Positions 31,749-43,495 are shown, counted from the stretch's first letter. The stretch: 64,000 bases of DNA from Algoriphagus sp. (GCA_021298245.1 JAJTDZ010000004.1:1-64000), one strand, 5' to 3'. The notes: generated from the letters alone by a model not told the origin. A program made the numbers and translations.

Positions 31749-31833
31749 AGAGGAGTGGCAGAGTGGTCGATCGCGGCGGTCTTGAAAACCGTTGTACCGA
31801 GAGGTACCGGGGGTTCGAATCCCTCCTCCTCTG
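31749..31833 (+). tRNA. tRNA-Ser (anticodon TGA)
   Basis: Acceptor AGAGGAG / CTCCTCT, anticodon loop CTTGAAA, long class II variable arm, T-arm GGTTCGAATCC. No encoded CCA. Confidence 0.93.
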
Positions 31834-31840
31834 CACATTC

Positions 31841-31870
31841 AACCCTTCCATCGCTTGGAAGGGTTTTTTT
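31841..31870 (+). terminator. Intrinsic terminator after tRNA-Ser
   Basis: AACCCTTCC-atcgctt-GGAAGGGTT followed by TTTTT. Confidence 0.85.
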
Positions 31871-32218
31871 ATAAGGAAGAAGCCACAAATTTTCTTTTAA
31901 TGATTTACTCCCCATTTCTAAAGGCTTAGCCCCAGTATTATTTTTTGAATAGGCAACTGATAAAAATAAACAAACCCTTCCATAAGAATTCATTTTGGGG
32001 GTTGTAGCTTATGCAAATAATTGGTTTAGTTTGGAAAATTTAAAATAAATAATCAGATTAGCTTTTATTGTAAGAACAAAAAAATCTATTACATATAAAA
32101 AGTTACATATTGTGTTGTTTTTATTCCTTATTGCAACTCACACCTGTACTTACCTAAAGATGTTTACATAAAATATTACCTTTTGATTTAAGAACACTCC
32201 AGATAAAAATTAAATCTC

Positions 32219-33652
32219 ATGAACCCCTATCAACTAACAGCAGGTCATCTTTTACACGATAGATATTCCATCCTAAAAACGCTTGGCCAAGGAGGATTTG
32301 GAATTACTTACCTCGCGCTTGACAATAAATTACACCAAGAGGTTTGTATCAAAGAATTGTTTATCTCAGGTAGCAGTACCCGGGGCACTAACATGACCGT
32401 ACAATCTCAAGGGGGTTCTGATTTTTCATTTTCAGAATTTGTAGATCGTTTTATCCAGGAAGCGAGGCAGCTGGCAAAATTTCAACATCCTAACATCGTG
32501 AGGGTGATGGATATTTTTGAGGAAAATGACACTGCCTATTCTGTTATGGAATTTGTCAAGGGCGAGACCTTGAAAGAAAAAATTCAACGAGAAGGAGCTC
32601 TTGAGGAAAAAGATTCTAAGGCACTGATCAATCAACTATTGGACGCTGTGAGCATGGTGCATGACAAAGGTATGCTCCATAGAGATATCAAGCCTGATAA
32701 TATATTAATTACCCCAGAAGGCCGAGTAGTATTAATTGATTTTGGATCGGCTAGAGAATTTGCTGAAGGTAAGACAAGCAACCAAACGGCCATGGTCACC
32801 CCTGGCTATGCTCCCCCTGAGCAATATTCTGAAAGAGCCAAAAGAGGGCCATTTACAGATATTTATGCCTTAGGTGCCACCCTATATTTCTTAATGACAG
32901 GTGAAAAACCCATTGCTTCTACAGATCGAAGCTTTGAAGAGCTTACTCCCCCGCAGCAGCTCAATCCCAAGGTAAGCAATCAGCTATCAAGTACCATTTT
33001 AAAAGCCATGGAGCTTAGACCAGATCAGCGGTACCAAAAAGTAGCTGAGGTCAAAGAAGCTATCAATTCAGCATCCGGCATGGAAGCTCCAAAAGTTTCT
33101 AAAGCCAAAGCTTCTCCTAAAGCAAAAGTTGATCCGGAAAAAACAGCGATAGCATCCGAAAGTCCTACTACCGTCATCCAAGAAAAGCCAAGCAATCCAA
33201 CCGTAATTCAAGAAAAAACTCCTACAAGCCCACCTCCCCCTACAACTCCTCCTCCCTATAACCCCTACCTATATAAACCAAAAAGTAACAATACTTGGAT
33301 TATAGTAGTCGTTATTGTGGGCTTTATTTTTGTTGTAGGCGCAATCACCACGGCTGTGGTTTTATTTTCTAGCGCTTATGACGACAGCTCCTATACCTAC
33401 CCTGATTATTCGGATTCCAATGATGCCACGGAGGAATGCTTAGACTGCTACGAAGAAACTGACCCTTACATGGCTGAATTTGATTGTGGAGATGGGACTA
33501 CTATTAACAGTGATTATGTCAATGATGGAGAATGCGATTGCTATTCCTGTGAAGATGAAGCTGAATTGTGGAGATGCGGCAGTGGAGAAACAATCCCAGT
33601 TTCCTACCTCTATGACGAAGACTGCGATTGTTCCGACTGTTCAGACGAATGA
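32219..33652 (+). CDS. Transmembrane Ser/Thr protein kinase (PknB-like) with Pro-rich linker and C-terminal Cys/Asp-rich LDLa-like tandem repeats
   Basis: GQGGFGITYLA, HRDIKPDNILI, DFGSAREF, GYAPPEQYSE. TM helix WIIVVVIVGFIFVVGAITTAVVLF. Tail FDCGDGTTINSDYVNDGECDCYSCEDE / WRCGSGETIPVSYLYDEDCDCSDCSDE. Confidence 0.9.
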   Translation: MNPYQLTAGHLLHDRYSILKTLGQGGFGITYLALDNKLHQEVCIKELFISGSSTRGTNMTVQSQGGSDFSFSEFVDRFIQEARQLAKFQHPNIVRVMDIFEENDTAYSVMEFVKGETLKEKIQREGALEEKDSKALINQLLDAVSMVHDKGMLHRDIKPDNILITPEGRVVLIDFGSAREFAEGKTSNQTAMVTPGYAPPEQYSERAKRGPFTDIYALGATLYFLMTGEKPIASTDRSFEELTPPQQLNPKVSNQLSSTILKAMELRPDQRYQKVAEVKEAINSASGMEAPKVSKAKASPKAKVDPEKTAIASESPTTVIQEKPSNPTVIQEKTPTSPPPPTTPPPYNPYLYKPKSNNTWIIVVVIVGFIFVVGAITTAVVLFSSAYDDSSYTYPDYSDSNDATEECLDCYEETDPYMAEFDCGDGTTINSDYVNDGECDCYSCEDEAELWRCGSGETIPVSYLYDEDCDCSDCSDE

Positions 33653-33762
33653 TGGTTGGAGCCCACCTTTGTCTAGATAGGTTGCCATGGTATTTACTTT
33701 AGAATAATTTGGAAAGGGATTAGAAGCCAGGATATTTTCTAGTCTTAAATAAAATATTCGAA

Positions 33763-33797
33763 AAAAAACGTTTCCGGTTTTTGGGAACGTTTTTTTT
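33763..33797. terminator. Intrinsic terminator between convergent kinase genes (likely bidirectional)
   Basis: AAAAACGTTTCC-ggtttttg-GGAACGTTTTTTTT with A-tract on the left and T-tract on the right. Confidence 0.85.
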
Positions 33798-33947
33798 ATG
33801 ATTAAAAATGAAAGCCCCCTTAACTAAAAAAGGATTATAGGCTGGAGTTCTCCTTAGTCTAATCTCCTTTTCCACCTTAGCCTTTGACGAAGCAAAGTGC
33901 CAAGGTCCTCCTGGAAGTTAAACCAATAAGTTGAATATGATATTGGT

Positions 33948-35165
33948 TTATTTTGGTATAATAGAATCATATCTTCGGCTTCTACGATATGAATTAATAG
34001 CATTAATAGTATCTTGTCTGGCTATTTCTTCATAAGCAGTCGCAATTGAATCTTGTCTGGCTATTTCTTCAAGAGTAGCCTCAATCGCAGCCGCAGTCGC
34101 AATTGAATCTTGCTTAGCTTGTTCTTCATAGGGGGTACTTTCTCCTCCTTCTCTTTTCATTATAAAGAAAAAAATAAGGAAAAAAAGAACTATACCCGCC
34201 CCAATTAGAAAAGTTTTATTTGATTTGCTTTTTTGGGTTTCTTTCTTTTCTGGAATTGATTTTTCGGTAACAGCCTTGCTTGTTAGCTGAGGCTCTTCAA
34301 TAGAAATTCTTTCTTTACCCTCCCCAGTACTTTTCACATCGATTTGTGTGGAATCCGAATCTACTATTCTTGAGCTGGATGGCGATTCCAGGTCTTGTTT
34401 TAGCTCTGTGGAACTGCTGTATCGATTCAAAGCCTCTTTTTCCGTGGCCCGCTGAATGATCCTATCCCAAGATGTATTGGTTTCGGCCAAGCGCTCCGTT
34501 ACAATCTTGGTTTGCAACTGAAAATTGGATAGGGTCTTGGTATCGTAAGGCTTCTTGCCGGTTACCATCTGCCAAAGCACCACGCCCAAGGAGTAAATGT
34601 CGGATTGTGCCGTGACACTCTTGGTCTCCGTGATCTGCTCCGGACTCATGTACATGGGTGTACCCATTTGCATACCTGTACCCGTTTGGGTATACTCGGC
34701 AGCATTTGCATCCGTGTTTTTGGCAATCCCAAAATCCATCAACTTCACCTTTCCCTTTTTGTCAATCATAAAGTTGGAAGGCTTGATGTCTCTGTGAACC
34801 ATCTTCTGCTCATGCACATAACCCACCGCATCCAGCATCTGAGAAAAGATTTCCCTCACCTCATTATCCGGAAGGGCTCCCTTGCGATCCAAGTATTCTT
34901 TGAGGGTCTCTCCTTTCACGTATTCCATCACAAAGGCAACCGTATCCCCTTCGTCAATCAAATCGGACACCCGAATCACGTGGGGATGGGACATGCGAAA
35001 CATGCTCCTTGCTTCAGCTAAAAAACGCTTTTTGATGTTTTCGTTGGACACAAATTCCTTCTTAAGCATTTTCACCGCTACCTCCGTATGGAATTTGTGA
35101 TCTTCTGCCAGGTGCACTATCGCCATGCCTCCCTCGCCTAGTATGGATTTTAAAGTGTAGTTCAT
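33948..35165 (-). CDS. Transmembrane Ser/Thr protein kinase with short repetitive C-terminal tail
   Basis: GEGGMAIVHLAEDHKFHTEVAVKML, HRDIKPSNFMI, DFGIAKN, GTPMYMSPEQI. TM FLIGAGIVLFFLIFFFIM. Tail with 13-aa repeats EEIARQDSIATAY. Confidence 0.92.
   Translation of the reverse strand: MNYTLKSILGEGGMAIVHLAEDHKFHTEVAVKMLKKEFVSNENIKKRFLAEARSMFRMSHPHVIRVSDLIDEGDTVAFVMEYVKGETLKEYLDRKGALPDNEVREIFSQMLDAVGYVHEQKMVHRDIKPSNFMIDKKGKVKLMDFGIAKNTDANAAEYTQTGTGMQMGTPMYMSPEQITETKSVTAQSDIYSLGVVLWQMVTGKKPYDTKTLSNFQLQTKIVTERLAETNTSWDRIIQRATEKEALNRYSSSTELKQDLESPSSSRIVDSDSTQIDVKSTGEGKERISIEEPQLTSKAVTEKSIPEKKETQKSKSNKTFLIGAGIVLFFLIFFFIMKREGGESTPYEEQAKQDSIATAAAIEATLEEIARQDSIATAYEEIARQDTINAINSYRRSRRYDSIIPK
34512..35165 (-). 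repeat. Direct repeat copy A (kinase catalytic domain, 654 bp)
   Basis: Indel-free alignment with 36242..36895 at a constant offset of 1730 bp, from the start codon through LSNFQLQ. Confidence 0.9.
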
Positions 35166-35239
35166 GTTAAAAATATCTTAGTTCTTCAAACTTCTATTGA
35201 TAATAAGGAGCTTTATTGTTTAAATTAAATTCTTACACT

Positions 35240-36895
35240 TTATTTTTTTCTTAAACATCGAACGGACATTCCAAAGGCCTTATTTTCAGAAAATATTGAA
35301 AGATCAAAAAAATCATCTACTTCAAAATACCAAGCAGTATTTTCATATCCAAGCTCATCGCTTTGATCTGAACACCACCACGCACCTATTAATATATTAT
35401 CCTCAAACTCTCCATTTAATTTTCTATACCCACCAAAAAAAATATTAAATCTAGTTCTATCTAGAACGGGTCCTACCACCTCAGGACCATAACCGGGGAT
35501 AGAATCCCTCCATGTTTTATTTACAATTGTATCAGTTGCAGTTTTATAATTATCATAACACCAATCAATTAGGAGGTTCCAATCATCTGAAGAGGGAATT
35601 ACCCAACCTTCTGGAGCCAATCCCCTTGGATCATTTACAGCATACCAATTGTATAATTTTCCATACTTCTCACCATAAGCCGGGTCATTTTTAAAATAAC
35701 TCCATGCAGGCCTACCTTCTTCAGCCGCCATCCTCCATTCCTCATCAGTTTTTGCTTCAGGAATAGGATCTCCATTTTTGAATGTTGCTACACTTAAATT
35801 AGATGTCATCCATTCCTGAGTGCCTATTGTTACTGTTTCAACTGATGAAAAATCATCACCATCACCTAAACTTAAAAAAATGGCAAGAACTAAAAGTGGT
35901 ATAATTGCCAGAAGAAAATACCATTTCTTACTGGTTTTGGTCGACTCAATTTTTTCTTCTTCCCTTTTTAATTCTTCTGGATTTGTGCTAATTGACTTTT
36001 TTTCGCTCGATAAAGGAACTTTTTCTACACTAACAATTTGTTCAATTAAAGTTTTTTCCTCCTTACTAGAATGAGCCGTTAATTTATTTTCAGTATTCTT
36101 TTTCTTCTTCAAAGAAATTAGATTTTCGGAAAAATCTAAACTGTTTTGAAGTCTTTTACTCGTATCCTTAACGGTTGCCATTTGAATTGGCCCATCCCAT
36201 TGCGTATTAGTTAGTTCTAAAGGTTCTTGTACGATCTTTAATTGCAACTGAAAATTGGACAGGGTCTTGGTATCGTAAGGCTTCTTACCGGTTACCATCT
36301 GCCAAAGCACCACGCCCAAAGAATAAATATCCGATTGAGCCGTGACACTCTTGGTCTCCGTGATCTGCTCCGGACTCATGTACATGGGCGTACCCATCTG
36401 CATACCTGTACCCGTTTGAGTGTATTCTGCAGCTGTTGAGTCTAACGTTTTAGCAATACCAAAATCCATCAACTTTACCTTTCCCTTTTTGTCAATCATA
36501 AAGTTGGAAGGCTTGATGTCTCGATGAACCAGCTGCTGCTTATGTACATAGCCCACCGCATCCAGCATCTGAGAAAAGATTTCCCTCACCTCATTATCCG
36601 GAAGGGCTCCCTTGCGATCCAAATATTCTTTGAGGGTCTCCCCTTCCACATACTCCATCACAAAGGCAACCGTATCCCCTTCGTCAATCAAATCGGACAC
36701 CCGAATCACATGCGGGTGGGACATGCGAAACATGCTCCTTGCCTCAGCTAAAAAACGCTTTTTGATGTTTTCGTTGCTCACAAATTCCTTCTTGAGCATT
36801 TTCACCGCTACCTCCGTATGGAATTTGTGATCTTCTGCCAGGTGCACTATTGCCATGCCCCCCTCGCCTAGTATGGATTTAAGGGTGTAATTCAT
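35240..36895 (-). CDS. Transmembrane Ser/Thr protein kinase with C-terminal Fib_succ_major (FISUMP)-like domain
   Basis: Kinase domain almost identical to 33948..35165. TM WYFLLAIIPLLVLAIFLSLG. C-terminal VTIGTQEWMTSNLSVATFKNGDPIPEA...YGKLYNWYAVNDPRGLAPEGWVIPSSDDWNLLIDW...MSVRCLRKK. Confidence 0.92.
   Translation of the reverse strand: MNYTLKSILGEGGMAIVHLAEDHKFHTEVAVKMLKKEFVSNENIKKRFLAEARSMFRMSHPHVIRVSDLIDEGDTVAFVMEYVEGETLKEYLDRKGALPDNEVREIFSQMLDAVGYVHKQQLVHRDIKPSNFMIDKKGKVKLMDFGIAKTLDSTAAEYTQTGTGMQMGTPMYMSPEQITETKSVTAQSDIYSLGVVLWQMVTGKKPYDTKTLSNFQLQLKIVQEPLELTNTQWDGPIQMATVKDTSKRLQNSLDFSENLISLKKKKNTENKLTAHSSKEEKTLIEQIVSVEKVPLSSEKKSISTNPEELKREEEKIESTKTSKKWYFLLAIIPLLVLAIFLSLGDGDDFSSVETVTIGTQEWMTSNLSVATFKNGDPIPEAKTDEEWRMAAEEGRPAWSYFKNDPAYGEKYGKLYNWYAVNDPRGLAPEGWVIPSSDDWNLLIDWCYDNYKTATDTIVNKTWRDSIPGYGPEVVGPVLDRTRFNIFFGGYRKLNGEFEDNILIGAWWCSDQSDELGYENTAWYFEVDDFFDLSIFSENKAFGMSVRCLRKK
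36242..36895 (-). repeat. Direct repeat copy B (kinase catalytic domain, 654 bp)
   Basis: Pairs with 34512..35165 without indels over the kinase domain. Confidence 0.9.
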
Positions 36896-36896
36896 T

Positions 36897-38144
36897 TTAT
36901 TTCACTTTGGTAAGTGGTATTTTATTCAAATTGACCCCATAGATCACAGGGATCTGAGAGTTGGCAGTATGATTGGATACCTTGTTTTTGGTATACATAA
37001 ACAACTCTCCTGCGGTCACGTACTTGTCCTGATTTAGATCAGCAAGGCCCTGCATGCCTCGAATCAGGTAGTAGCTAAAGACTCCTTGTTCTAGACTGCC
37101 TAATTCCATGGAATATTGATCTGGTTTGGAAGACATAATTACCGCCAACCTGGAATCGTACAGGTCTTGGGTACTAGAGACGGAAGTTTCGTTGGCAGTG
37201 CCTATGCTCCCTGAAAAACAGGCGTCAGCCACTACCAATCGGAATTTGGCCTCCGTATTTTTAAAATAATTTTTCAAATCTGCATGCCTGAGTCCTACAG
37301 AATGATTGTAGGGGACAAACTCTCCTACACTTCCATGCCCTGAAAAATAAAAAATGATAAAATCATTCGAATTGGAAGTACTAAATACATTGGAAAGCGC
37401 TGCTTGAATATTACTCAAAGTAGCTCTTTCATTGAGCAACAAAACTGCCTTCCCGGATGCTACCTCATTGGGCATAGCCTGGTGTAAGTGATTGTAAAAC
37501 AATTGAGCGTCTCGATCCGAATAGCTCAAGTCCAATTCCGAACCCTGATAGTCTGAAATGCCAACTACCACGGCAAATACTCTAGGTCGAAGCGTTTTTT
37601 GAGAAGAATATCCCTTATTTTCTAATGAATCAGGGGGTATTACCAACATGGAATCTGTCAATCCCAATTCCTCTTCTAGGGCCAAATTGAATTTCCCATT
37701 TTCCCAATATCCTTCTATGAGCTCGCCCGTATGCTTTTTAAACGAGCCATAGCCATTGAATTGGTTTCTTGCGAAACTTCCCGTGTAGCTGTCTCCATTT
37801 TTGAAAGTAAACTTCCCATAGGACTTGGCGTCTTCCACATAAAATCCTTCGTAAAGTTCCCCATTGGAATAGCGATAAGTCGCCAAACCGTCCCTATTCC
37901 CCTCCTTAAAAGTTCCTTCGTAAATATCCCCGTTAGGATACAAATAAGTGCCCTTTAGTTTTTGCCCTTGCTGAAAAAATCCTTGAAACTTACTCCCATC
38001 AGGGTATATTTTCTCTCCAGTTCCATTTTCACAATCTCCCTTGATGCATTGGGCAATGGAAATAGACGCTATCCAAATTAGGGTGCAGGTAAGTAGAAGT
38101 TTTTTCATCATTACTTGATAATGTAGACACACAGTATAATCCAC
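36897..38144 (-). CDS. MORN-repeat protein with caspase (peptidase C14) domain, predicted exported (likely Met at 38108-38111)
   Basis: Signal peptide MKKLLLTCTLIWIASISIAQ, at least five MORN-like repeats (YPNGDIYEGTFKEGNRDGLATY, YSNGELYEGFYVEDAKSYGKF), caspase His motif FYFSGHGS and Cys motif VVADACFSGSIG. Confidence 0.92.
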   Translation of the reverse strand: MDYTVCLHYQVMMKKLLLTCTLIWIASISIAQCIKGDCENGTGEKIYPDGSKFQGFFQQGQKLKGTYLYPNGDIYEGTFKEGNRDGLATYRYSNGELYEGFYVEDAKSYGKFTFKNGDSYTGSFARNQFNGYGSFKKHTGELIEGYWENGKFNLALEEELGLTDSMLVIPPDSLENKGYSSQKTLRPRVFAVVVGISDYQGSELDLSYSDRDAQLFYNHLHQAMPNEVASGKAVLLLNERATLSNIQAALSNVFSTSNSNDFIIFYFSGHGSVGEFVPYNHSVGLRHADLKNYFKNTEAKFRLVVADACFSGSIGTANETSVSSTQDLYDSRLAVIMSSKPDQYSMELGSLEQGVFSYYLIRGMQGLADLNQDKYVTAGELFMYTKNKVSNHTANSQIPVIYGVNLNKIPLTKVK

Positions 38145-38189
38145 AGATTACATTAGTAGAGGTAAGAAATAATCCTTTTCCTTTAAAAT

Positions 38190-39347
38190 CTAAGGCATAT
38201 TATCCGATCCTGGGGGCTTTTTAGGATTTTTTCCAGCATCTTCCTTTTCAGGTTTTTCCTCCGTTTTATTCGGTGCGGATCCTTCTTCCTGATTTACTTC
38301 TTCTTGGGCATCTTGCGACTCAGAATTCTCCTCTTTATCTCCTTGGGTTTTGGAATCTTCCGGCTCTTTATCTCCAGCAGGATTTTCTCTTTCCTGTTTA
38401 GGTTTTGACTTTCCATCACCTTCCAACGCCCTCTTAATAGGATCCTTCAGGAGAAAAAATCCTACCACCAAAACCAAAATGGCTAAAGAAATAAGGGCTA
38501 TTTTTTTTATGTTGCCTGGTATATTTTCCTTTTCACTCTCAGGATGAGGATATGGAAAGGATCGGGATTCGGCGAAGTCATGCACAGGAATAGCCTCCAC
38601 GACTTGTGGTTCAGAATCAATCGCGGCCAACAAGGAAGCCTCTTTGATTTTAAAAGCAATCGCTGTAAAATTATCCTTGGACTGTTTTTCGCATTTTAGT
38701 TTTAGTTGATCTAAGACTTGCGCACAGGACGACCCTGAGGAAAACAATTGTTCCAGCTCATCATCTTTCCAACTTTCTAGAACGCCATCTGAACAAAGAA
38801 GAAAATAGTCATTGGCTTGTATATCCTTCAATAATTTGGAATCGGCCTTCATGGGTTTGCTGGTGCCCTGAACTGCACGAGTAATCATATTCGACTTTGG
38901 ATGATTGATTGCTTCTTCGGGGGTTATGATTCCCAGATCCAAGGCATCATTTACCCAGCTATGGTCCTTGGTCACAAAATGGATCTTACCGGCTCTAAAT
39001 TGATAGATCCTGCTGTCTCCTACCCAAGCCACATACACCCCATCCTCTCGGATATGGGCTAGGGTCAAGGTAGTTGCCATTCCTGAGGATTGTGGATTTT
39101 CCCCAATATAGGCTGCCATCTTTGATTCAGCGATGGGAAGGGCTTTTTCAATGGAACTATTCTTGTCCTCCTTAAACGTGTTCAAGATGGACCGGCATAC
39201 GATATCAGATGCAATCTCACCCTTCTCTGATCCACCTACTCCATCGCATACCACATAGGTAACGTTGGGTAGATAGCCACATTTATCTTCATTGTTAGCT
39301 CTTTGACCTACTTCAGAAATAAATTCTTGTTCTAATATTTTTATCAT
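38190..39347 (-). CDS. PP2C-family Ser/Thr phosphatase with TM helix and acidic C-terminal tail
   Basis: VGQRANNEDKCGYLP, YVVCDGVGGSEKGEIAS, VAWVGDSRIYQFRAGKI, LLCSDGVLE, KDNFTAIAFKI. TM KIALISLAILVLVVGFFLL, then a Glu/Lys/Pro-rich tail. Confidence 0.93.
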   Translation of the reverse strand: MIKILEQEFISEVGQRANNEDKCGYLPNVTYVVCDGVGGSEKGEIASDIVCRSILNTFKEDKNSSIEKALPIAESKMAAYIGENPQSSGMATTLTLAHIREDGVYVAWVGDSRIYQFRAGKIHFVTKDHSWVNDALDLGIITPEEAINHPKSNMITRAVQGTSKPMKADSKLLKDIQANDYFLLCSDGVLESWKDDELEQLFSSGSSCAQVLDQLKLKCEKQSKDNFTAIAFKIKEASLLAAIDSEPQVVEAIPVHDFAESRSFPYPHPESEKENIPGNIKKIALISLAILVLVVGFFLLKDPIKRALEGDGKSKPKQERENPAGDKEPEDSKTQGDKEENSESQDAQEEVNQEEGSAPNKTEEKPEKEDAGKNPKKPPGSDNMP

Positions 39348-39358
39348 AGGTTATGCTT

Positions 39359-40486
39359 TTAAATGAATCCTAAACCTGATTCATCTATACCAAAATCACC
39401 CATGCCGTAGTCGGTTTCACTGTAGCTTTGGGGAGTTTCCATGGCCTCAAAATCAATAGTTTCTAATTCCGAAGAATAGGGATTGTCCACTGGACTATCA
39501 TAAAATGACTCCCAATCAATGGCATCATAATTTTCCGACGTAGCTTCAGTTGATTCTTCTACAAAATAGGATTCATCGGCAATGTAGGAAGTCTCCATAC
39601 TCTGCTCTGTAGTTTGATAGGGATCATAGATTTGATCTCCCTCGGGAATAATTAAATTATGACCTGCATAAATCAAATCAGGGTTAGAAATCTGAGGATT
39701 TAGCTCCATCAAATGTTCTATACTGGTATTGTTGGCAGCCGCAATTTCTGACAAGGTATCCCCTGGCTGAATTTGATATAAATAGGAATCCATCATGCTC
39801 ACCCCAAGGGCATCGCAATAGCCACATTCTACATAATCGCTATTATCTGCCAATAGAATATCTTCTATGAAGGTTGGATCTATAGAATTTCCAAATTCGG
39901 TGTAGGTAATTGTCACCCCATCTACGGATTGAAATTCCAAGGTTTGGCTATCGATTTCTCCATCACCCTCAAAATCTAAAAAGGAAACCGAATACACATT
40001 GCCTTCTTGATCCATTCCCGAAATTTCCAATGAAGAAAATCCTTCTAGATCAGATTCTTCTACAGGGCTATCCAGATCGACTTCTTCTGACTCCGTTGAG
40101 GCTACTGAAGCAGCTGTAGGTATATTTTCAGACGTTGAAGGAGTTTCATCCGCAAAGAAAGGTTGAGCAATCACTTCCTTAATTTCATCTGAAAAAGTAG
40201 CTCCAAGGGCCACTCCTGCTATTCCGCTTACTGCAGCAGCAGCACCTGCAGCAGCTACTACCGGTACTACCGAACTTTTTGCTTTTGACTGAGCCATAAA
40301 CTGCTCCGTAGTTTTAGATTCGCTTTGCTTGGCTGAAGAATTTCCTCCTCCATTCTCCGGTTTCGCTTCGTTTTTTTCTTCAGATTTTGAATTATCAACC
40401 GGAGTTCCAGAACTCATCACGATAGTTTTGTCTGCTTTCTCAGGTTCACCTGAATTTGAAATTTGAGTTTTATCTTCCATGATCAA
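39359..40486 (-). CDS. LysM-domain protein with Ala-rich hydrophobic segment and acidic low-complexity flanks
   Basis: LysM: YQIQPGDTLSEIAAANNTSIEHLMELNPQISNPDLIYAGHNLIIPEG. Hydrophobic VVPVVAAAGAAAAVSGIAGVALGATF. Confidence 0.85.
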   Translation of the reverse strand: MIMEDKTQISNSGEPEKADKTIVMSSGTPVDNSKSEEKNEAKPENGGGNSSAKQSESKTTEQFMAQSKAKSSVVPVVAAAGAAAAVSGIAGVALGATFSDEIKEVIAQPFFADETPSTSENIPTAASVASTESEEVDLDSPVEESDLEGFSSLEISGMDQEGNVYSVSFLDFEGDGEIDSQTLEFQSVDGVTITYTEFGNSIDPTFIEDILLADNSDYVECGYCDALGVSMMDSYLYQIQPGDTLSEIAAANNTSIEHLMELNPQISNPDLIYAGHNLIIPEGDQIYDPYQTTEQSMETSYIADESYFVEESTEATSENYDAIDWESFYDSPVDNPYSSELETIDFEAMETPQSYSETDYGMGDFGIDESGLGFI

Positions 40487-40920
40487 TTTATTTTTAATGT
40501 GATTTTACTAAGACCAACAATTACAAAATCATCCTTCTTAAAAGGGTATTTTTGAGAAGGCTTTAATCTTAACTTATTTTTATTGAACGTACCGTTTAAA
40601 CTCCCCTTATCTTCTAAGGTAACGAAAAGTTTGTTGTCAGTTTCTTCCAATACCAATTCCAAATGATTTCTACTCACGTGCTCATCCTCTAGTTGAAAAT
40701 CTGCACCTGAACTTTCAGTCTTTCTACCCAAGGTATTTTTTCCCATTTTTAAAGGGAATTGCTGGATTTTGTCTTTGGATTGAACAACCAAAAATGGCCC
40801 AAATCTAATGATGTTTTTAACTCCGCATTTTGGGCAATTCACAGCGACCTGAACTTTCTTGATAATTGCCTCATCAATTTTGTATGGAGCTTGGCAATTT
40901 CCGCATTTAAAATATTTCAT
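40483..40920 (-). CDS. FHA-domain protein with N-terminal MJ0042-like zinc ribbon (track start 41010; likely Met 40920)
   Basis: KYFKCGNCQAPYKIDEAIIKKVQVAVNCPKCGVKN zinc ribbon, then FHA NTLGRKTESSGADFQLEDEHVSRNHLELVL...LEDKGSLNGTFNKNKL. Confidence 0.9.
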   Translation of the reverse strand: MKYFKCGNCQAPYKIDEAIIKKVQVAVNCPKCGVKNIIRFGPFLVVQSKDKIQQFPLKMGKNTLGRKTESSGADFQLEDEHVSRNHLELVLEETDNKLFVTLEDKGSLNGTFNKNKLRLKPSQKYPFKKDDFVIVGLSKITLKIN

Positions 40921-40921
40921 T

Positions 40922-42010
40922 TCATCTAAATTTAGTTTTACACTTAAAACAATCTCGTATAGTAATCCAAGGTTTTTTTTGAAAAGATTCCTTACATCTT
41001 GGGCAGGCATATACCTCTAAAAAGGCATCTTCAAAGGTCAAATCCCCTCTAATTTTATTGGATTCTTTTTGGCCAAGGTATCTACCCAAAATACCACCCC
41101 CACTCATCAATAAAATACCAGCGATTCCTCCTGTAAAAGCTGATGCTGCTAAACCCAAAACTGCCCCACCAATACCATACCCCGTAGCCTTTGTGGTTGC
41201 CTGATTCAATCTGTTATTGTATTCTTTCCAGACAGCCTCCAAGTCCTTAAATTGCTTTAACTCTTCACTTGTGGCCTCAGCCCCAGGAGCTGGGAGTACT
41301 TGTGCTTTTTGTAAAGCAGGCTCTTGCCTTTTTTCAAGAACTACTAGTTCAGGAAAATATTTTTTAAGATCCAAGACCAGGTTAGTCCCTATTCTAATTT
41401 GTGCTGAAGAGGAGAATTGATAGCGCTTATTGGCTTGCAATTTCTCTCCATCTACAAAGGTGCCATTGGTAGAATTTAAGTCTTCAATTTCAAAAATAAC
41501 AGGAGTGAGTAACCTTATTTTGAGATGTTGTTTGGATACTATCGAATGTTCTAGTTGAAAATCACAGGTGGAAGCCCTACCCAGAGTTTTATACTCATTC
41601 ACATCATGCTTGGCAAGGTCCTCTAGCTTTGCATGATTCCTGTCAAAAATTATAGTCTTTCCTCCAGCATTAAGTTGTACTGAAGAATTATTCAGTAAAA
41701 TAGTTTGATCATCTTTTGATGGTGAATTAGGGTCATTTTCAAATTCTAAATTCTTGAATCTAATCTTTTGAAAATCCAATTCATAATCTTTTGAAAGCGT
41801 AATTTTATTGTGAAAGGTAATAGGCACTTTCATGTTAGGTTTTATCTGCCTACCATCAATAAATGTCCCATTTACACTTCCTAAGTCTTGAATAAATAAT
41901 TTATTCCCTTCTTTAATTAATAAGGCATGCTTTCTAGAAACGCGATTTAATGGATCATATACGATATAATCACATTCTTCTAAACGACCAATTGAAATGG
42001 TTTGATTCAT
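40922..42010 (-). CDS. Double-FHA protein with glycine-zipper-like segment and C-terminal zinc ribbon
   Basis: FHA1 ISIGRLEECDYIVYDPLNRVSRKHALL...DLGSVNGTFIDG. FHA2 KTLGRASTCDFQLEHSIVSKQHLKI...DLNSTNGTFVDG. GYGIGGAVLGLAASAFTGGIAGILLMSGGGILG. CPRCKESF...CFKCKTKF. Confidence 0.92.
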   Translation of the reverse strand: MNQTISIGRLEECDYIVYDPLNRVSRKHALLIKEGNKLFIQDLGSVNGTFIDGRQIKPNMKVPITFHNKITLSKDYELDFQKIRFKNLEFENDPNSPSKDDQTILLNNSSVQLNAGGKTIIFDRNHAKLEDLAKHDVNEYKTLGRASTCDFQLEHSIVSKQHLKIRLLTPVIFEIEDLNSTNGTFVDGEKLQANKRYQFSSSAQIRIGTNLVLDLKKYFPELVVLEKRQEPALQKAQVLPAPGAEATSEELKQFKDLEAVWKEYNNRLNQATTKATGYGIGGAVLGLAASAFTGGIAGILLMSGGGILGRYLGQKESNKIRGDLTFEDAFLEVYACPRCKESFQKKPWITIRDCFKCKTKFR

Positions 42011-42193
42011 TATTGAATTAATCTTTGCTTCTTTTTATAATAAACTCTAATATCCATTAGAGTGAAATTTTAATTTAGAAATTAAATTTTTCTTGTTTTA
42101 GAAAGGTCGGAATTTATTTAAAAATATATGCTTTTCAAAAAAAAAAAAATTAAAACCCTTTTTCATTCACATTTCATGTATGAAGATATTAAA

Positions 42194-42445
42194 TCAGGAC
42201 ACCCGGGTTTCAGAATATAAATCGTATGCAGCGACCATCACCAAGGACACAGGAGAATATCCATATTTTTCTATCTCATCTATCTCTTCTCGCGTACTCA
42301 GGTACCGAGGGCTATACTCCTGTTCTAATTCATCCCAAAGAATTAGCAAATAAGCATAAGGAATCCTACTGGCACGACCTTTTTCCAGCCATTCCATAAA
42401 TACCGATTCTTCCAAGGGTTGGGGATATGCTTTGCTCTCAAACAT
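42194..42445 (-). CDS. Small uncharacterised protein (83 aa)
   Basis: Intact ORF just downstream of the LLM-flavin gene in the same direction. No family recognised. Confidence 0.5.
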   Translation of the reverse strand: MFESKAYPQPLEESVFMEWLEKGRASRIPYAYLLILWDELEQEYSPRYLSTREEIDEIEKYGYSPVSLVMVAAYDLYSETRVS

Positions 42446-42460
42446 GTTATCTGACTTGGT

Positions 42461-43495
42461 TTACTTCAAACCTTGTTTAACCTGTGGAATAACTTCCTCT
42501 CCCACCAGGGCGATGGATTCACTGAGTTGCTGGTGGCTAAGGCCTGCATTGTCCATTTGAAAAGTAAATCGCTGAATTCCTCCCAAGGAATGGCTATGTC
42601 GAATGATTTTCTCTGCCACTTCCTCAGGACTACCCACCAGGTAGGCTCCTCTAGGGGCATTTTGGGCTTCAAAGTGGCCACGAGTCACTGGAGGCCAGCC
42701 CCGCTCTCTGCCAATGCGGGTAAAGGTTTCTGCATAGCCTGGATAATAACTTTCCACCGCCTCCTCACGGGTCCTAGCCACATACCCCAAAGAATGTAGT
42801 CCCACTTTCAAGTCCTCCTGTGCATAACCGGCCTTGTCTCCTGCCTCTCGGTACAAATCCACTAGGGGACGAAAGCGATGGGTTTCTCCTCCAATCACCG
42901 CTACCATCAAGGGTAGTCCTAAGGAGCCTGCGCGTACAAATGAGGCTGGAGTCCCTCCCACTCCCAACCAAACGGGTAATTTCTGCTGCAAAGGCCTAGG
43001 GTAAATCGCTTGCTCTTGCAATGGAGCGCGAAATCTTCCCCTCCAAGTCACCACTTCTTGCTCGCGAATCTGCAAAAGCAGGTCCAACTTTTCTGCAAAA
43101 AGAGCATCGTAATCTTGAAAACTGAATCCAAAAAGGGGGAAAGCTTCCGAAAATGATCCTCTGCCTACCACGAGTTCGGCCCTTCCTTGGGAGATCAGGT
43201 CTAGGGTAGCAAACTGCTGGAATACCCGAACCGGATCCGCTGCACTGAGTACGGTCACGGCACTGCTTAAACGAATCCGAGAAGTACGAGATGCAGCTGC
43301 CGCCAAGATCACCGAGGTGGCGGAATCCAAAAACTCCTTGCGGTGATGCTCCCCGATGGCAAATACATCTAGACCCTTTTCATCGGCTAACTGGATACGG
43401 TCCAATAATTCTCTTAAGGCATCCTGAGCTGTCCCGACGGGATTACCTTGAGCATCCGTTACAAAAGCGGCAAAGCTATCGATTCCAATTTCCAT
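42461..43495 (-). CDS. LLM-class flavin-dependent oxidoreductase (luciferase-like)
   Basis: GLDVFAIGEHHRKEFLDSATSVILAAAASRTSRIRLSSAVTVLSAADPVRVFQQFATLDLISQGRAELVVGRGSF. Confidence 0.93.
   Translation of the reverse strand: MEIGIDSFAAFVTDAQGNPVGTAQDALRELLDRIQLADEKGLDVFAIGEHHRKEFLDSATSVILAAAASRTSRIRLSSAVTVLSAADPVRVFQQFATLDLISQGRAELVVGRGSFSEAFPLFGFSFQDYDALFAEKLDLLLQIREQEVVTWRGRFRAPLQEQAIYPRPLQQKLPVWLGVGGTPASFVRAGSLGLPLMVAVIGGETHRFRPLVDLYREAGDKAGYAQEDLKVGLHSLGYVARTREEAVESYYPGYAETFTRIGRERGWPPVTRGHFEAQNAPRGAYLVGSPEEVAEKIIRHSHSLGGIQRFTFQMDNAGLSHQQLSESIALVGEEVIPQVKQGLK

Follow-up and report, generated by a model that had tools for sequence, protein, structure and literature searches.

A conserved Bacteroidota gene set encoding kinases, a phosphatase and FHA proteins: a candidate phosphothreonine switch paired with a predicted exported caspase

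Introduction

What could be the function of a bacterial gene cluster in which Hanks-type kinases, a PP2C phosphatase, FHA-domain proteins and a caspase-fold protease are encoded side by side? We address this question for a locus at positions 32219-42010 of a 64,000-nucleotide stretch of DNA from Algoriphagus sp. (GCA_021298245.1, JAJTDZ010000004.1:1-64000), hereafter the window. A preliminary description, made from the sequence alone, had proposed a single system containing the writer, eraser and reader of a phosphothreonine circuit. The best reading of our results is a switch resembling the threonine phosphorylation pathway (TPP) of type VI secretion systems (T6SS), with an interchangeable output that would here be an exported metacaspase.

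Organization of the locus

Eight open reading frames (ORFs), each with assigned Pfam domains, make up the locus (TM, transmembrane segment):

32219-33652, plus strand: K1, Hanks kinase (Pkinase, E=3e-48)
33948-35165, minus strand: K2, Hanks kinase (Pfam Pkinase; one TM)
35240-36895, minus strand: K3, Hanks kinase (Pkinase; FISUMP PF09603, E=4e-33; TIGR02145; one TM)
36897-38108, minus strand: MORN-caspase, Peptidase_C14 (PF00656, E=1e-20; MORN, PF02493; signal peptide)
38190-39347, minus strand: PP2C phosphatase, Stp1-like (PF13672; NF033484, E=1e-51; TM at residues 282-300; charged tail)
39359-40480 (or 40486, with a TTG start), minus strand: LysM membrane scaffold (PF01476, E=1e-12; one TM)
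40483-40920, minus strand: ZnFHA, soluble, MJ0042-type Zn ribbon and FHA domain (PF00498, E=3e-10; PF13717; no TM)
40922-42010, minus strand: FHAGZ, double FHA (two PF00498 domains, E=7e-34; FHAGZ family alignment)

The ORF calls and Pfam assignments agree with the preliminary description on the eight genes, their domain types, their order and their tight packing. The seven minus-strand genes are separated by 1, 2 (or -4), 11, 81, 1 and 74 nt, and K1 is convergent to this block. The 4-nt overlap described between the ZnFHA and LysM genes holds only if the scaffold starts at the TTG at 40486; the ATG at 40480 leaves a 2-nt gap. Promoter and terminator scans of the locus gave no excess over shuffled sequences, so that operon status rests on gene spacing. 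By inspection, the key residues are intact in the kinases (VAIK/HRD/DFG), the PP2C (DGVGG/SDG/DN), the FHA domains (GR..S..H..N) and the caspase (H258/C297). One TM was found in each of K1, K2, K3, the PP2C and the LysM protein, which bears out the single-pass membrane topology suggested for the kinases and the phosphatase. In the host assembly (2.48 Mb, 83% complete), this locus accounts for all FHA domains, all three Hanks kinases above the Pfam cutoff and the sole C14 caspase.

Conservation of the gene set across Bacteroidota

A profile of the FHAGZ family was searched against genome sets at three taxonomic levels (order, 391; class, 395; phylum, 396), and the regions around its matches were typed with six hidden Markov models; a scan of genome contigs with the double-FHA protein by itself as the query returned no matches. 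The 45 non-redundant loci seeded on FHAGZ contain ZnFHA (41), PP2C (39), kinase (KIN; 36), scaffold (SCAF; 36) and caspase (CASP; 26) genes, most commonly in the order FHAGZ-SCAF-ZnFHA-PP2C-CASP-KIN; the gap between genes has a median of 18 nt, and some of the incomplete loci are cut by the end of a contig. An independent scan seeded on the caspase found four or more of the five partners at 19 of 32 short-caspase loci, whereas the 45 loci whose caspases are all of the long, Saprospiraceae type have no partner at all. The pairwise distance matrices of FHAGZ, ZnFHA, PP2C and CASP correlate with r=0.80-0.90, as expected under joint inheritance.

The module ranges over Cytophagales, Bacteroidales, Chitinophagaceae and Saprospiraceae, and its carriers include Runella, Spirosoma, Dyadobacter, Persicitalea, Rhabdobacter, Larkinella, Bernardetiaceae, Ferruginibacter, Saprospiraceae and Bacteroidales metagenome-assembled genomes (MAGs) from rumen, deer and termite gut. 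The module was also found in two plasmid records, from Runella rosea (with the caspase) and Parabacteroides distasonis (without the caspase), and no homologue was found in the phage collection. The preliminary description had named a lack of joint conservation as an outcome that would refute it; on the contrary, the genes are conserved together in the neighbourhoods searched across Bacteroidota, and their recurrence in both scans supports the earlier proposal of one system. We conclude that the module is a real and widespread Bacteroidota system with a conserved gene set. Chance clustering of unrelated signalling genes is refuted by this recurrence in many families and by the held-out, threonine-specific motif described below, and is extremely improbable.

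Several Spirosomataceae loci (L047-L049, L089-L098, L137, L139 and L141) encode additional PKD/LamG lipoprotein, TPR, sigma70-region-4 and anti-sigma-like proteins. The reading frames of one scaffold (L113:8503-9896) and one PP2C (L159:9199-9986) are in pieces, owing to frameshift, sequencing error or decay.

FHA readers, scaffold and threonine motif

Besides its two FHA domains, FHAGZ contains a hydrophobic Gly-rich segment and a C-terminal CxxC..CxxC Zn ribbon; the ZnFHA family has no TM. The LysM protein, which holds the position of SCAF at other loci, comprises a cytoplasmic N-terminus with two threonine motifs, one TM and an acidic periplasmic part with the LysM domain. In SCAF proteins, a TM separates a short cytoplasmic tail from an acidic periplasmic part. 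Their AlphaFold2 (AF2) model has two confident domains, formed by a 70-residue 'SFxEAFxxAR..GxGGxFxWxGxxYxTY' region and by D-x-N-x-D-G repeats, and a fold search of the PDB gave no match at E<=1e-3. We claim the LysM protein as a putative SCAF equivalent by position and architecture only. In either form, the membrane scaffold probably bridges both sides of the membrane.

A short motif was first noticed as [DE]KTx[IV] in several module proteins and then tested against shuffles as [DE][KRQ]T.[IV]. It occurs 15 times in scaffold cytoplasmic tails (0.5 expected), 22 times in kinase juxtamembrane segments (1.6 expected) and 13 times in ZnFHA linkers (0.7 expected). Catalytic and extracytoplasmic parts, PP2C, CASP and FHAGZ show no such excess. 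The excess persists in held-out loci, which were not used to define the motif and were clustered at 50% identity (8 versus 0.31, 4 versus 0.62 and 7 versus 0.28; scaffold, kinase and ZnFHA segments tested). The motif is specific for threonine, with 50 occurrences against 2.75 expected, compared to 2 against 2.7 for a serine version and 2 against 3.0 for an alanine version. FHA recognition would impose such specificity (see PMC3953482), and the threonine-specific motif thus supports the phosphothreonine circuit of the preliminary description; it argues strongly for the predicted wiring between kinases, scaffold and FHA readers. Three candidate sites are present in the host locus:

40460-40474, minus strand: candidate phosphothreonine site DKTQI, scaffold cytoplasmic tail (motif statistics)
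40418-40432, minus strand: candidate phosphothreonine site DKTIV, scaffold cytoplasmic tail (motif statistics)
33137-33151, plus strand: candidate phosphothreonine site EKTAI, K1 juxtamembrane segment (sequence)

At many loci, the extreme C-terminus of ZnFHA contains a second conserved threonine motif (e.g. DYSQTIIW, DYAPTVIIK, FNPDRTQ), possibly a further phosphosite.

The predicted exported caspase

The caspase consists of a signal peptide, MORN repeats and a caspase domain, with an alternative GTG start at 38144. Its AF2 model (mean pLDDT 83) finds MORN1, MALT1 and Yca1 as fold matches in the PDB, and the His-Cys dyad is invariant in 22 homologues; by predicted fold and dyad, the protein is a C14 caspase/metacaspase. 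A signal-peptide-like N-terminus is present in 36 of 47 caspases of the family. Since the protein is predicted to be exported, direct phosphorylation by the kinases is very unlikely, and the earlier suggestions that the caspase is a kinase substrate or an ordinary cytoplasmic effector do not fit the predicted export here and in most relatives. In Runella aurantiaca, a single 521-residue ORF (L125:9218-10783; same contig as L099:6371-7936, minus strand) encodes a PP2C, a hydrophobic segment and a caspase, so that the cytoplasmic phosphatase and the caspase are connected through a former signal peptide. In Saprospiraceae, the long caspases (L126-L203; about 500-690 residues), often in tandem pairs, have no module genes nearby and form a separate caspase group.

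An exported protease with extracytoplasmic partners might also serve envelope homeostasis, trimming or shedding the kinase ectodomains, the scaffold or adhesins for feedback or remodelling rather than death. The PKD/LamG lipoprotein, TPR and sigma/anti-sigma-like genes added at Spirosomataceae loci would suit such a role; however, they are absent from the host window, and we regard this explanation as unlikely.

Kinases and swappable ectodomains

The kinases of the locus differ in their extracytoplasmic parts. K1 has its TM at residues 361-379 and a weak LDLa-like, Cys-rich ectodomain (residues 423-477). Island-free relatives encode, in the same tRNA-Ser-linked place and orientation (L205:4511-4942, L206:6370-6837 and L207:5301-5759), a resident one-TM protein of 143-155 residues; it has two Cys-rich repeats and shares 50-54% identity with this region of K1. 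The simplest reading is gene capture, in which a kinase domain would have become fused to a resident surface protein. K2 has a short extracytoplasmic tail with QDSIAT repeats, and the extracytoplasmic part of K3 is a FISUMP (Fib_succ_major) domain. The first 666 nt of the two genes are 92% identical and the remainder, encoding the C-termini, is unrelated; judged from this alignment, K2 and K3 are domain-swap chimeras, a second case of ectodomain exchange. Kinase C-termini at other loci contain YceI, Sel1, DUF4328, TonB_C, FGE-sulfatase, WD40 or WG domains, and a single TM follows the kinase domain in 65 of 85 kinases at a strict hydropathy threshold. The sensors are thus modular. FGE-sulfatase-type ectodomains occur in kinases of L132 and L187, and among the T6SS-adjoining loci L045, L046, L106, L113, L114 and L115 there is one kinase with a TonB_C ectodomain.

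T6SS linkage and variable output

In genus g57 (L045, L046, L113-L115 and L106), the module adjoins genes for ClpV, TssB, TssC (PF17541, E=3e-146) and a VgrG-like protein; five of these six loci lack the caspase and one contains it. The module lies beside T6SS genes in some Spirosomataceae, often without the caspase. In 13 loci, TssC and FHAGZ are 4-32 kb apart, a proximity with a chance expectation below 1% for each locus. This linkage would be explained by a T6SS-type TPP that regulates the secretion or contractile machinery, with the caspase as an accessory (a maturation protease or exported effector) and the host copy as a detached or orphan module. However, neither TssC family (PF05943 or PF17541) was found in the host genome, which is 83% complete, and PF17541 is missing from 18 of 43 genomes searched, namely 17 module carriers (including the host) and the island-free G1107. 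Caspase carriers are among these PF17541-free genomes (they include G058, G039, G081, G093, G598 and G605), and we consider an explanation confined to T6SS control fairly unlikely. The preliminary remark that no T6SS gene is visible stands for the 64-kb window and the host assembly, but not for the family as a whole. In the tree, caspase and T6SS linkage are scattered over several clades; together with the PF17541-free carriers, this indicates that the phospho module is constant while its output varies.

Nearest relatives and the island at tRNA-Ser

The nearest locus, in the Cyclobacteriaceae MAG L204, matches the host locus at about 74-79% of nucleotides over alignable blocks and has a syntenic flank; the next nearest, G058/G099, belong to another family (45-48% at the amino acid level). 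Judged from this synteny, the host is probably a member of the Cyclobacteriaceae. These loci and the host locus, all with the double FHA protein, form a clade with 100/100 support. The MORN-fused caspase is shared by the host locus, L204 and G058 (the G099 contig ends before the caspase), and LysM at the scaffold position by the host locus and L204 only. Between these two, dN/dS is 0.06-0.19 for the double FHA, ZnFHA, LysM and PP2C genes, indicating purifying selection; dS is saturated and not computable for CASP. The double-FHA gene of G058 and G099 is preceded, 2 nt upstream, by an XRE-type HTH gene that the host locus lacks (L041:1863-2162, L039:1883-2224). In G058, the caspase gene is followed by AbiEi/AbiEii toxin-antitoxin genes (L040:12009-13453).

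The FHAGZ match is absent from at least 20 congeneric genomes. Flank homology with L205, the closest relative found, ends at 31870, shortly after tRNA-Ser(UGA), and starts again at 42480, the gap being filled in L205 by 1.56 kb of resident small genes:

31749-31834, plus strand: tRNA-Ser(UGA), left edge of the variable site (L205 flank homology ends at 31870)
31871-42479: region absent from L205 (flank comparison)

An 85-residue protein with a domain of unknown function (42194-42445) is also present in L205 (63% at the amino acid level), which places the true right edge near 42.1 kb. From this comparison, the locus is a presence/absence island beside tRNA-Ser, missing from close relatives. Its GC content of 0.38-0.41 is slightly below that of the flanks, which is weak evidence for transfer.

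Such an island could also carry an anti-phage or abortive infection system, in which infection perturbs the envelope, the kinases fire and the caspase kills the cell. The AbiEi/AbiEii genes next to the G058 caspase gene, the occurrence of Hanks kinases and caspases in known defence (KKP, PMC11341870) and matches to PADLOC-DB kinase models (PD-T4-6, mad6) are in line with this. However, all PADLOC matches, to kinase and caspase models, are to generic families, with no defence-specific model matched; a periplasmic caspase would be unlike cytoplasmic conflict effectors; the phage collection contains no homologue and plasmids only two; and there is no systematic enrichment of defence islands. We therefore consider a dedicated defence function quite unlikely.

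Comparison with known systems

The closest mechanism is the PpkA-pThr14-TssL-Fha pathway of the Agrobacterium T6SS (PMC3953482). The module shares with T6SS TPPs (PpkA-PppA-Fha) a membrane kinase, a PP2C and an FHA reader encoded together, a bitopic membrane protein whose cytoplasmic tail holds a candidate phosphothreonine (here as a motif only) and, in some relatives, linked T6SS genes. It differs in that the host genome has no T6SS, both of the FHA proteins bear a Zn ribbon, the scaffold is unrelated to TssL, the output is a caspase and the kinase ectodomains are swapped. The closest accessory module, the kinase-kinase-phosphatase (KKP) system (PMC11341870), likewise combines kinases and PP2C with FHA at an accessory genomic location. 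In contrast to KKP, the present module is not prophage-borne and has membrane kinases and a caspase; the locus proteins contain neither a cold-shock domain nor a kinase-FHA fusion, and KKP membership was rejected.

PASTA kinase/Stp1 pairs (PknB family) also have single-pass kinases with an ectodomain and an Stp1-type PP2C. Membership of the PASTA kinases (PknB/Stk1) was rejected, as the locus proteins have no PASTA domain and K2 and K3 score 297-298 of the 450 bits needed for the PknB_PASTA equivalog. The TerY-P triad and vWA-kinase-PP2C systems share kinase, PP2C and Zn ribbons with the module, in which, however, the ribbons sit on the FHA proteins; no vWA domain was found in the eight locus proteins, and membership was rejected. 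Related neighbourhoods appear in PMC7159879. The components of MoxR-vWA/VMAP conflict systems (MoxR NTPase, vWA and VMAP) are absent from the locus proteins.

A survey of prokaryotic metacaspases and orthocaspases describes operons with signalling domains and mentions no FHA (PMC3501461), and caspases are also found in conflict systems (PMC7159879, PMC8195603). These share the C14 fold and His/Cys dyad with the present caspase, which differs in being predicted to be exported, stand-alone and tied to phosphothreonine signalling rather than to NTPase/EAD systems. No description of this gene set was found in literature and domain surveys, whose coverage of subscription journals and preprints was partial, so that absence is not proof; the module is apparently undescribed.

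Proposed mechanism

We propose that the module acts as a phosphothreonine switch, conserved in Bacteroidota, through which signals cross the inner membrane, and that it is here paired with an exported metacaspase; we give this reading about an even chance. Through exchangeable extracytoplasmic domains, among them FISUMP and the Cys-rich type, the kinases would sense the envelope or surroundings. They would autophosphorylate and also phosphorylate the threonine of the [DE]KTx[IV] motifs, which lie in the scaffold cytoplasmic tail, the ZnFHA linkers and the juxtamembrane segments of the kinases themselves. The FHA proteins, one of them membrane-associated, would bind these phosphothreonines and build a cytoplasmic complex on the scaffold. 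Its assembly may alter the periplasmic part of the scaffold, passing the signal through the membrane and recruiting, releasing or activating the caspase, which would be gated in this way and could cut envelope or surface proteins. The PP2C would reset the switch. Its purpose may lie in cell death, envelope repair or defence; the envelope surveillance or regulated death suggested in the preliminary description is likewise an inference.

Several points weigh against this proposal. The sequence homology between the LysM scaffold and SCAF reaches marginal scores only. The motif shuffles treat homologues as independent, even with the held-out set clustered. No separate caspase is present within about 10 kb at 19 of the 45 FHA-seeded loci, although one of these is the PP2C-caspase fusion (L099), one lies on a split contig whose other half contains its caspase, and some end at contig edges; the caspase is thus frequent, not obligatory. 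The fusion is supportive only as a link between caspase and switch, because it was seen in one genome and could be mimicked by a single indel. Finally, the mechanism presumes a contact between scaffold and caspase.

A broader version of the proposed switch, which we offer tentatively and as doubtful, is a general outside-in-outside phosphothreonine relay of Bacteroidota with interchangeable sensors (ectodomains swapped or captured from neighbouring genes) and outputs (T6SS or exported metacaspase). Its caspase form would be a bacterial executioner pathway, in which the kinases drive the assembly of a cytoplasmic FHA-scaffold signalosome that fires the caspase across the membrane.

Few physiological triggers of metacaspases are known in bacteria. 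If the proposed switch is correct, it would connect Hanks kinases with a bacterial metacaspase by a route open to testing. It would also bring a natural fusion of PP2C and caspase, a concrete consensus for the phosphosites and a new membrane scaffold family without a PDB fold match, and would mean that a T6SS-type phosphothreonine switch has been reused for another output.

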